This document shows positions 7,663-43,861 of a stretch of DNA of 64,000 bases, one piece after another (position 1 is the first letter of the stretch; every line of letters starts with the position of its first letter). Made by a program: the position numbers and the translations under genes. The notes beneath the pieces were generated by a model. It was not told the origin of the DNA. It did no database searches and worked only from the letters and a program-made list of their open reading frames with translations. The stretch is taken from the NCBI GenBank assembly GCA_003224055.1, contig QHYE01000072.1, positions 1 through 64,000 of the forward strand, in the 5' to 3' direction. This DNA is from Acidobacteriota bacterium. GTDB lineage: Bacteria > Acidobacteriota > Terriglobia > Acidiferrales > UBA7541.

Positions 7663-7675
7663 GGAGTTGCTGATC

Positions 7676-8674
7676 ATGCATGTCCTAAAGCCCAAGAATC
7701 TCATTGTGCTGTTGCTCCTGGCTGCGTCGCTCGCGTTCGCCGCGCCGGCGACGGATTTGCCTTTTGGCGTATGGAAGCGTGCAACGAATGAGCCAATCCT
7801 TTCTCCGCAGGGCACCACCTGGGAATCCGCTGGAACGTTTAACCCTGCCGTGGTCCTTCACAACGGAAAATTCGTCATGCTCTACCGCGCCCAGGACGCT
7901 TCCGGCACCTCGCGTCTCGGTTACGCCGAAAGCACCGATGGTATCCACTTCACGCGCCGCCCGGAGCCGGTGCTCTTCCCCGAAACCGACTATGAAAAAG
8001 ACGGCGGTGTCGAAGATCCACGCCTGCAGAAAATCGGCGACACGTATTACGTCACTTACACCGGCTACAACAAAAAAGATGCGCAGCTCTGCCTCGCCAC
8101 TTCGCGCGACTTGATTCACTGGGAGCGCAAAGGAGTGATCCTTCCCGCGTACAAGGGAAATTGGAATGTCGCCTGGACGAAGTCCGGCGCCATCGTCCCG
8201 GAATAAATCGACGGCAAATATTGGATGTACTGGCTCGGCACGGCCGCCGACAAGACCGACCAGATGGGGCTCTCCTACTCCAGCGATCTCGTTCACTGGA
8301 CCGAAGCGACGCCCACGCCCGTTCTTCCGCGCCGCGCGGGAAAGTTTGACTCGCGCGTCGTCGAACCCGGCCCTTCGCCGATCCTGACCGAGCGCGGCAT
8401 CGTGCTCATTTATAACGGCGCCGACGATAAGCTTGTCTATCGCACTGCCGTTGCCGTCTTCGACCGCCACGATCCCCGCCAACTGCTCTCGCGGTCCGAG
8501 GCCCCCATCTTCGCCCCGGAAAAAGAATGGGAGAAGGTCGGCCAAGTGCCCAACGTTGTCTTCGTGGAGGGCATGGTCCGCCATGGCAACCGCTTCTTGT
8601 TTTACTACGGCGGCGCGGACAAGCATGTGGGGGTGGCCGAAGCCCCAGCGACTCCTGACGCGAACAAACGATAG
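7676..8674 (+). pseudogene. GH130-like glycosidase interrupted by one in-frame TAA
   Basis: ATG 7676 follows GAGGAG with 9-nt spacing and opens an exported protein (signal LIVLLLLAASLAFA). The five-bladed propeller sequence includes GGVEDPRLQKIGDTYYVTYT, the hallmark of GH130 beta-mannoside phosphorylases and related glycosidases. Translation stops at TAA 8204-8206 after AIVPE, and the same frame continues without loss as IDGKYWMYWL to TAG 8674. The two parts together give about 332 residues, a normal family length. A single base change (AAA or AAG to TAA) explains the break. It is either a recent nonsense mutation, a sequencing error or an unusual readthrough. The gene begins 13 bp after the FG-GAP gene and is probably cotranscribed. 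Confidence 0.75.
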
Positions 8675-8715
8675 GAAGTTCAAGAAAAACTTGAGATCTC
8701 TACTCAAAGAGACCA

Positions 8716-8920
8716 ACGACACCCAGCAGTTTTCGTAAAAGCACATTCTAAAAGACGTACAGGCGTCACAGTTTGTAAATGCGCATTCTAAAGGACTTGC
8801 AGTGACGGGATTCTCGTCAAGGTGACGGAAGTTCGCTCCGACGAGTTCCAGAATGGGAATTGTTGGTACACACCCGGCAGTTTTCGTATGAGTGGCAAAT
8901 ACAGGGGTTACAGGATACGG
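8716..8920 (-). repeat. Modular dispersed repeat, copy A
   Basis: Read on the minus strand this holds one module ending in CCCATTCTGGAACTC, then a palindrome CGTCA-N3-TGACG (8815-8827), then two related units of about 45 nt. Each unit has a core like TTTAGAATGCGCATTTAC followed by GAAAACTG or AAACTG. The same modules occur in the opposite orientation at 42661-42952, with the order of modules changed. No inverted ends, transposase or long frame is present. The two copies are clearly homologous by eye. Confidence 0.8.
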
Positions 8921-8997
8921 AAAATGAAAGAGTACGCAAGCGCGAGATAGAAAAGGGGTTGCGGGGGCACACTTTACAACACAAAGTGAAAATTGTG

Positions 8998-9063
8998 TAT
9001 CCCTCGACTGCGCTCGGGACAACTGAGAGGCCCGCCCCGGCGGGCAGGCCTGCCACGGCAGGC
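8998..9063. repeat. Palindromic repeats: GTCATCCCGAG-family copy plus two tandem hairpins
   Basis: 8998-9023 is a reverse-strand copy of the GTCATCCCGAGCG...GAGGGAT repeat also seen near 35.4 and 36.4 kb. It is followed by two perfect 7-bp hairpins: GCCCGCC/GGCGGGC (9030-9045) and GCCTGCC/GGCAGGC (9048-9063). No run of T follows, so this is not an intrinsic terminator. Confidence 0.75.
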
Positions 9064-9440
9064 AGGCAAAGAAAGGACTTAGAGGAATCGTGTGAAAGGA
9101 AATGGGCGCGGAGTGGGAACCGACCCGGGTGGCTGGCGTCCAGTTCATGTAAAAGCCTAGCACGATCCTGGCTAACTGTCAATAAATATTATAAGCTGGA
9201 TATCATTCGAATGGAGCGGGAAGGTGTTGAAAAGGCTGCGGTTTGAGGGCTTGATGAAAATCTTGCAGGTTGCGCACGCAAAGATCGGACCAGCCGCGCG
9301 GGCTCTCCTCTGGCGAAGGGACGAATGAGGGATTTAACCCTTTTTAGTCAACACTGACCGTCAGGCCAGTAGACTCTTCGCAGCGGACCTGACTAAATTA
9401 GATTAGTCCGTAGTCCACATTTCGCTGTGTAAGGATCCCC

Positions 9441-42423: not shown

Positions 42424-43066
42424 TCCTTGCGCAGACGGTGCAGCCCCTTCGACTCGACCTATTTCTTCTTGTGCAGCGCGCTCTGTGTTAATTCTTTCCA
42501 CTCTTGCACTTACGCCGCGTTTCTCATTCGAAAGTACCATAAATTTCATTCGAATCTAGTACCACATCGTAATAGTATTTGACATACTAACCTTCCCGTG
42601 CTACCGTGCATTGTGAACTCGGGATCCCAACCCTATCGCGTCCCTCGAACGCTCCACTTCCGTCACCGTGACGAAAAACCCGTCACCGCAACTCCTTTAG
42701 ATCCCACACTTACAAACTGTGACGCCCGTAACCCCTTTAGAATGCGCATTTACGAAAATTGCCGGGTGTCGTCCCCCGCACCCTTCATTTTTGTTTCTCC
42801 GCCCACTTTTTCGCGCAAAAAGCCATTTTGCAAATCCATTATTTTCTGTGCGTTGCGCACTCTCCCAAGTTCCGTATCCCGTAACTCCTTTGCTTGCCAC
42901 TCTTACGAAAACTGCCGGGCGTGTATCAACAATTCCCATTCTGGAACTCTGCGCCCTCTGATCGCTCCTCTAACTCCAAGCCCTTCTCTTTCACCTGATC
43001 ACCGATCACAGGTTACTTTTCCTCTGGTTGCCGCCCTCCTGCCCGGATGCTACGATTTGGTGTTCC
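42424..43066. other. Intergenic region, repeat copy B and little else
   Basis: Holds the modular repeat at 42661-42952. The parts before (42424-42600) and after it contain no gene I can support. TTGACA at 42577-42582 is a possible -35 box without a convincing -10. Confidence 0.6.
42661..42952 (+). repeat. Modular dispersed repeat, copy B
   Basis: Begins with palindrome CGTCACCGTGACG (42661-42673). Two units follow from 42679 and 42725 with the core CTTTAGAATGCGCATTTACG, then about 100 bp of unrelated T-rich sequence. A module with TTACGAAAACTGCCGGGCGT and CCCATTCTGGAACTC follows at 42878-42950. In copy A (8716-8920) that last module comes first. Orientation is opposite to copy A. Confidence 0.8.
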
Positions 43067-43861
43067 ATGACCCCCGCTGACACTCATCTGAGCGCTGCTC
43101 CCCGGCCACGTGTGGGCATCCCCTGGCGCACCACGCAGGAACAGCGCGAAGGCAAACGCGATAAGCTGGACTTCTACTTCAACGCTGTCAGGAAGGCAGG
43201 TGCAGAACCGCTGGAAGTATCTCTTGAGCAGTCGCCGGAACAGCTTGCAAGCCAGCTGGAGAAACTGGACGCCTTCGTTCTGCCGGGCAGCCCGGCGGAT
43301 GTGGACCCCGGTCGCTATGGTGCATCCAGGCACCCCAAGACAGCGACCCTCGATCCCAACCGAGACGCAACCGATGACGCAATTCTCACCCACGCGTTTC
43401 ACTCGTCAAAGCCGGTCCTGGCCATCTGTTATGGCTGCCAAATTCTCAACGTTCATCTCCATGGCTCCTTGATTCAAGACATCCCGGAGGTGCGACCCGA
43501 TCGCCCGCTCGCCGTTCCTCATGGAACTACTGATCTCGCAGCAGGAGCAATTGGTGGCGATCAAAACCACGATGCCGTGCTGACCGCAGGGAGCCTTCTC
43601 GCGAAGCTTGCCGGTTCCACTGCGGCCCATATCAACAGCAGCCATCACCAGGCCATCGACCAACCTGGAGAAAAACTCGGCGTCGTAGCGTACGCCCCGG
43701 ATGGCACGATCGAAGCCGTGGAATGGACCGGCGATTCCAACTGGGTCGTCGGCGTTCAGTGGCATCCCGAGCGCATGCCGGAGGATCCACTTGCGCAGCG
43801 TCTTTTCCAGGATTTCGTGGCTGCCGCTCGCGCCCGTGAGGCCGTCGCTCAGAAGGCTTAG
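43067..43861 (+). CDS. Class I glutamine amidotransferase-like hydrolase (PuuD/peptidase C26)
   Basis: 264 residues from ATG 43067. The triad is complete: Cys121 in LAICYGCQ, His233 and Glu235 in GVQWHPER. PGSPADVDPGRYG near residue 73 is typical of gamma-glutamyl-GABA hydrolases. Such enzymes cleave gamma-glutamyl amides, for example in polyamine breakdown. No other puu gene is nearby, so the substrate is a guess. Cytoplasmic. Confidence 0.88.
   Translation: MTPADTHLSAAPRPRVGIPWRTTQEQREGKRDKLDFYFNAVRKAGAEPLEVSLEQSPEQLASQLEKLDAFVLPGSPADVDPGRYGASRHPKTATLDPNRDATDDAILTHAFHSSKPVLAICYGCQILNVHLHGSLIQDIPEVRPDRPLAVPHGTTDLAAGAIGGDQNHDAVLTAGSLLAKLAGSTAAHINSSHHQAIDQPGEKLGVVAYAPDGTIEAVEWTGDSNWVVGVQWHPERMPEDPLAQRLFQDFVAAARAREAVAQKA

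Follow-up and report, generated by a model that had tools for sequence, protein, structure and literature searches.

The 64,000-nucleotide stretch of acidobacterial DNA analyzed here (the window) carries two inverted copies, A and B, of a repeat whose modules stand in different order, and the question is what kind of element this repeat represents. A first-pass annotation described it as a modular dispersed repeat that is neither an IS, a CRISPR, nor a MITE with ends. That description still holds: no terminal inverted repeats of at least 9 nt were found in copy A or B, and one internal palindrome was seen in another copy (L045). Our analysis suggests, at a probability that we put at roughly 0.6, that the repeat consists of dispersed, recombining promoter-plus-leader cassettes upstream of unrelated genes, with translation of the leader coupled to the gene. 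Two features had escaped the first-pass annotation, namely a long open frame, which is under selection, and a predicted promoter of its own heading each unit. The sequence data establish the cassette architecture, selection for an open frame, the reach of this frame to the gene start, the unconserved amino acids, the copy number, and the module shuffling.

Two permuted copies and their relatives

Copies were oriented by reading the unit as GTAAnnCCTTT...TTAC on the sense strand, which is minus for copy A and plus for copy B (Table 1). Two blocks match between the copies in inverted orientation, 8716–8832 with 42656–42772 at 84% and 8843–8962 with 42830–42949 at 80%, at the places first noted for the modules. 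After re-orientation the blocks are permuted (X-Y in one copy, Y-X in the other), as had been proposed. Within the window, the 20-mer GTAAATGCGCATTCTAAAGG has three matches at up to three mismatches (shuffles, 0.00), and ACACCCGGCAGTTTTCGTAA has four (expected, 0.01). The palindrome CGTCA-N3-TGACG, for which a constraint had been suspected, is indeed present in both copies. Its strict conservation is unsupported, since in other copies (six sequences) the spacer-free core TCACGTGA is kept and the outer base pairs are often broken. The limits first given for the copies proved too narrow, because the promoters extend them to about 8716–9212 and 42548–42949.

Table 1. Features of copies A and B in the window, with the gene that follows copy B.
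Feature	Position	Strand	Remarks
Copy A including promoter	about 8716-9212	-	
ATTCGAAT box upstream of copy A promoter	9205-9212	-	comparably spaced in other copies with A- or B-type promoters
Copy A promoter: TTGACA (9182-9177), 17 nt, TAGGCT (9159-9154)	9154-9182	-	
Copy A leader open frame: ATG 5 nt past -10, 487 codons without stop	7685-9148	-	
Copy A unit K (GTAACCCCTGTATTTGCCACTCATAC), then GAAAACTGCCGGGTGT	8886-8911	-	
Copy A module V (CCAACAATTCCCATTCTGGAACTC)	8843-8873	-	sharp 3' edge in most copies
Copy A palindrome CGTCA-N3-TGACG (CGTCA-AGG-TGACG)	8815-8827	.	
Copy A unit M2 (GCAAGTCCTTTAGAATGCGCATTTAC)	8775-8800	-	
Copy A unit M (GTACGTCTTTTAGAATGTGCTTTTAC)	8735-8760	-	
Copy B including promoter	about 42548-42949	+	
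ATTCGAAT box upstream of copy B promoter	42548-42555	+	
Copy B promoter: TTGACA, 17 nt, TACCGT	42579-42607	+	
Copy B leader open frame: GTG 5 nt past -10, 155 codons	42613-43080	+	TGA 43078-43080
Copy B palindrome CGTCAC-C-GTGACG	42661-42673	.	
Copy B unit M2	42688-42713	+	
Copy B unit M	42728-42753	+	
Copy B unit K	42881-42906	+	
Copy B module V	42919-42949	+	element's 3' edge
Peptidase_C26 / class I glutamine amidotransferase gene after copy B, 264 aa	43067-43861	+	Pfam

A search of the 4.5 Mb genome, as the first-pass annotation had proposed, gave 43 BLASTN matches (query 8700–8970) and 46 matches to a sequence profile of the K-V module, and a private segmental duplication of two copies, the annotation's own alternative, is thereby excluded. 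The profile matched 35 times in one related species and 15 times in another, and copies are present in 24 of the 36 members of the genus for which genomes were searched. Elsewhere in the order, three of 59 genomes gave a single profile match apiece, one of the three being strong, and the sole named record containing the exact 20-mer is an acidobacterial MAG. Upstream of glyA, the element occurs in the host species alone among the 30 species inspected; it is absent from this region in the others, which are too diverged there for clean insertion joints. At larC, module-like matches were found in four species. None of the relatives inspected offered an empty site with clean insertion joints.

Past the promoter, the copies contain a palindrome-M2-M block and a K-V block, whose order varies. 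Units K and M are variants of a single 26-nt unit (GTAA...TTAC) that have diverged from each other, and each is followed by GAAAACtGCCGGGTGT. Comparisons between copies showed that these parts are combined in different ways. L050 and L053 have 312 nt in common at 92.6%, and the match begins only at +69 and +174 of their respective start codons, so that the preceding stretches differ. Copy B shares 300 nt of modules with the A-type copies L043 and L045 at 85–87%, despite its other promoter type. Pairwise alignments of copies stop at the end of V in 63 of 133 cases, and on the other side a large group stops about 110 nt upstream of the start codon. In some pairs the modules are common and the upstream part is not, and in others the reverse is found, so that the permuted order reflects module shuffling; the modules recombine.

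Further sequence types accompany the modules in some copies. In several copies from relatives (L244, L249, L251), K comes after an extra leader module, TTTTCAATCACTTACGAATTGCAAATTCTGTAACTCCTTTGTTTTGATATTCATACAAAATGCCGGGGGGTGTACCCCCC, which has a G/C hairpin. Five loci (L047, L055, L059, L253, L254) contain units GTAAGTCCTTTAGNTGCAACACTTAC arranged in inverted pairs that could fold into a long hairpin, with AAAAACAGGGGGGGTGGGG behind them. The leader of copy A includes a palindromic GC-rich segment (gcccgccccggcgggcaggcctgccacggcaggcaggc) at 9027–9066. A 16-mer that resembles it, TGCCCGCCGTGGCGGG, splits unit K of L055 and looks like a second, very short inserted repeat.

Promoters and the open leader frame

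Upstream of the modules, most copies contain ATTCGAAT followed by TTGACA-N17/18-TAnnnT, a sigma70-like promoter. Two promoter types predominate, AAGTAATTGACACGCAGTGTACTT..GTGCTATTCT and AGTAGTTGACAGTCGGTATA..GTGCTACCAT; a third type is marked by a GGCACG..CGTGCC hairpin past the start. Simple patterns captured these types poorly: a search for ATTCGAAT plus TTGACA was too strict, with two matches only, and the regular expression written for the third class matched so loosely that it returned mostly noise. Within one genome, homologous A- and B-type promoters precede glyA, yceH, der, cyaY, larC, an aldo/keto reductase gene, the Peptidase_C26 gene, and other non-homologous genes. The third class is found upstream of fumC in several species (L143–L147), where the hairpin, GGCACG-N7-CGTGCC, lies just after the start and the leader begins with M-x-x-x-x-AVLLTPSES.

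The distance from the −10 box to an ATG or GTG is exactly 5 nt in 23 of the 25 copies of the host genome that have a promoter. A TANNNT motif about 12 bp before the start is a mark of leaderless genes, and Acidobacteria are among the groups in which it has been reported (PMC3160421). The 5-nt gap is thus a predicted signature of leaderless mRNA. Both copies in the window start a frame at this position, of 487 aa in copy A (9148 to 7685) and 155 aa in copy B (42613–43080), and the initial statement that the repeat contains no long frame was therefore incorrect.

Openness was scored for the frame of the assigned start codon (frame 0) as far as the element extends, and the two remaining frames served as controls; copies from relatives were chosen by promoter and start codon, not by openness. 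In a first set of 23 copies from the host genome, frame 0 was open in 19, compared with 1 and 4 for the controls. When the relatives were added (43 copies), it was open in 37 against 1 and 8 and contained 17 stops against 105 and 111; a first-order Markov model predicted 99.8 stops (sd 9.6) and 6.1 open copies, with a maximum of 12. All 16 copies from relatives were open, with 0 stops in frame 0 versus 35 and 32. Thinning to 22 copies below 80% identity left 21 open, versus 0 and 5. Six of 27 own copies are closed from the assigned start (L041, L053, L056, L057, L058, L060), and one of them, L060, belongs to the class with a downstream ATG. Antisense coding was considered and rejected, as the antisense frames contain 107–141 stops and are open in only one or two of the 43 copies.

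A held-out test used 40 places that had not been used before, with the promoter rule fixed in advance. A promoter and start could be assigned in just 15 of the 40, of which 9 had an open frame 0, compared with 4 and 3 for the other frames; among places with a gap of 5 nt and ATG or GTG, 9 of 11 were open. Among the exceptions are three third-class promoters whose start position holds a TTG and where another frame is open. Scored independently of the promoter rule, 39 held-out modules had a spanning sense frame of 379 nt on average (within −420 to +60), compared with 280.5 nt (sd 16.4) for randomized flanks, where the largest of 200 simulations reached 334 nt, and 169 nt for antisense. Openness also continues beyond the element, with frame 0 extending a median of 218 nt past the end of V, versus 96 and 113 nt (Wilcoxon p 0.005 and 0.08). 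Taken together, these results point to selection for an open leader frame.

A frame that is kept open from a start codon at the predicted transcription start could simply encode a true small protein, leaderless and repeat-rich, that is itself selected. Shared N-termini fit such proteins, since A-type copies have VFANQNP in common and third-class copies start with sequences resembling M-x-x-x-x-AVLLTPSES. The coding pattern speaks against them. In open copies, the 26-nt unit falls in phase 1 35 times and in phase 2 24 times; it never places TAA in frame, which openness itself demands. V occurs in all three phases. Between copies, a given module thus uses two or three reading frames. Within the unit, pN/pS is 0.71 and 0.80, with no excess of third-position change. 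In addition, the frame tends to leave the element and to run through unrelated sequence to the next gene. We therefore consider selection on the protein improbable, and the use of the modules in two to three frames together with unconserved amino acids indicates that openness itself is selected.

Leader ends and downstream genes

About 26 of 33 own copies point into a gene on the same strand (manual tally). These genes, which were named by inspecting their translations (for copy B, by Pfam), are unrelated and include glyA, fumC, der, larC, yceH, cyaY, a mqnA-like gene, ppa, sthA, and genes for a sigma factor and a thioredoxin-like protein. The end of the frame was compared with the gene start for 26 copies with a same-strand downstream gene, whose starts were set by recognizable protein beginnings in 14 and by codon score in 12. 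The first stop in frame 0 lies no more than 30 nt before the gene start, or beyond it, in 18 of the 26, over distances of 197–640 nt, compared with 1 and 4 for the other frames. The leaders stop at +1 of the larC and aldo/keto reductase starts, forming an ATGA overlap, and elsewhere at +5, +10, +11, −7, −11, and −13. At fumC, leaders from three of four tested species, all with third-class promoters, are 322–388 nt long and contain different modules, and all end at +5 of the ATG; none of their other frames comes closer to it than 167 nt. The frame of the leader relative to that of the gene is mixed (0, 1, and 2), which shows that the leaders are not N-terminal extensions. One further group was noted at L203 (G000:C136:728-1078) and its relatives, where a small protein of about 117 aa lies downstream of a B-type element; this is a multicopy family in the genus, found behind such elements in several species.

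In the window, copy B fits the promoter-leader architecture fully, its leader overlapping the Peptidase_C26 gene by 14 nt in a different frame. Copy A is an orphan, one of about 7 of the 33 copies that lack a same-strand gene ahead; it and others of these are still open. It points convergently at the 3′ end of a plus-strand GH130 gene (7667–8674), and beyond about 8716 its 487-codon frame runs antisense to this gene. Perhaps the gene of copy A was lost; alternatively, this copy could give rise to an antisense transcript or be inert. The GH130 gene (beta-1,4-mannooligosaccharide phosphorylase) seems to be split into two frames, 7667–8206 and 8225–8674, which match profile positions 29–163 and 180–310.

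The elements could also be multicopy small RNAs or RNA-binding motifs, for example with anti-Shine-Dalgarno CCTTT loops, with translation incidental. The strong promoter, the nucleotide-level conservation, and the recurrence in the units of (A)CTCCTTT, which is complementary to Shine-Dalgarno sequences, fit this view. RNAalifold on 35 K-V modules gave only a 5-bp stem, CACTC/GGGTG, at −2.8 kcal/mol, weak and with no compensatory change in any of its five pairs, so the covarying stems hinted at in the first-pass annotation did not materialize. That the modules might belong to an Rfam family had likewise been raised; at gathering and E-value thresholds, Rfam returned nothing but isrK, at E 0.33 and far below its cut-off. 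With no conserved fold, covariation, or family, and with a frame open up to the next gene that a free small RNA leaves unexplained, this interpretation seems unlikely.

The elements might instead be selfish repeats of the REP/BIME or MITE kind, served by a transposase in trans, with the promoter and frame as by-products. Their 46 dispersed copies, genus-restricted and patchy, the GTAA/TTAC ends of the units, and copies about 90% identical at different genes (L069, L070) all fit such an origin. It accounts poorly for the lack of terminal inverted repeats, the orientation bias towards downstream genes, and the open frame kept by divergent copies. Mobilization by RAYT proteins was rejected: the genome has two Y1 (RAYT-like, PF01797) genes (L277, L278), with no units in their 1.5-kb flanks. 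We give a purely selfish repeat little credence. Each of the three alternatives fails a test, though not for every copy, and promoter-plus-leader cassettes remain the preferred reading.

At glyA and larC, a conserved promoter adjoins the gene in species with and without the element, and fumC apparently also has its own conserved promoter, between element and gene. At glyA and larC the cassette is therefore a further promoter, distal to the one next to the gene, and the retention of the genes' own promoters at these two loci, and apparently at fumC, implies that the distal transcript is dispensable for basal expression. We propose that a sigma70-like promoter produces a transcript starting at, or one to two bases from, the ATG or GTG, leading to leaderless initiation; in the third class, a short 5′ UTR with a hairpin and an internal ATG would be used instead. 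Ribosomes would translate the 26-nt GTAA...TTAC units and V as a throw-away leader, to or near the downstream start codon. They would stay close behind the polymerase, preventing Rho termination, and arrive at the gene start, and translation of the gene, or transcription past Rho, would be coupled to that of the leader. Such coupling, through reinitiation or Rho protection, may be the reason why the frame must stay open. On this model, the promoter is presumably in use and initiation leaderless, the cassette would be mobile as one unit, and the downstream gene would have gained a second, distal promoter beside its own. The cell seems obliged to translate the leader stop-free to the next gene, and the encoded protein seems irrelevant.

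Significance and comparison with known systems

More broadly, we give even odds to the view that these elements are genus-specific mobile regulatory DNA, in which a promoter and a translated leader have spread together, the frame rather than the peptide is selected, and any set of modules in any frame must carry ribosomes stop-free into the next gene. Across dozens of loci, the comparative data show that translatability is selected and the peptide is not, a pattern that transcription–translation coupling predicts for long leaders but that is rarely so cleanly visible. A natural promoter-leader cassette set before housekeeping genes (glyA, fumC, der, larC, and others) may help to explain how long leaders escape termination, and allows one to ask how dispersed DNA may rewire expression in Acidobacteria. 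There is also a practical warning, as gene callers will list the leader frames as hypothetical proteins or attach them falsely as N-terminal extensions. Our literature search found no paper on dispersed leaders in Acidobacteria, and the closest parallels come from four other kinds of system.

Leaderless genes share the −10 box located 5 nt ahead of ATG or GTG (PMC3160421), but here the frame has no conserved product and stands ahead of a second gene. REP elements and REPINs, and GTAG- or CGTC-tagged palindromic repeats, are likewise short tagged units dispersed between genes, and RAYT-type genes are present in Acidobacteria (PMC3733652). Unlike REPs and REPINs, the present units are not palindromic hairpins, have no adjoining Y1 transposase, and belong to a leader several hundred bases long that is headed by a promoter. 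Putative mobile promoters (Matus-Garcia, Nijveen and van Passel 2012; van Passel 2014), as cited in PMC8049555, resemble the elements in that repeated promoter sequences precede unrelated genes in one genome. The repeat studied here differs in continuing 200–400 nt beyond the promoter, where it forms a shuffled leader that is translated.

The leader function itself is best compared with coupled upstream ORFs. In CruR/bp2923, a regulatory upstream ORF acts through Rho-dependent termination (PMC9426467), and in iraD, which is controlled with CsrA, a regulatory upstream ORF is coupled to the downstream gene (PMC5574718). As far as these sources describe the two systems, both have a leader frame that precedes a gene and ends near its start, as here, and in both the translation of the leader decides downstream expression, whereas for the present elements coupling is deduced from sequence. 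CruR and iraD are presented there as single loci, the CruR peptide being conserved; the leaders described here encode an unconserved peptide within a dispersed repeat found at dozens of unrelated genes.
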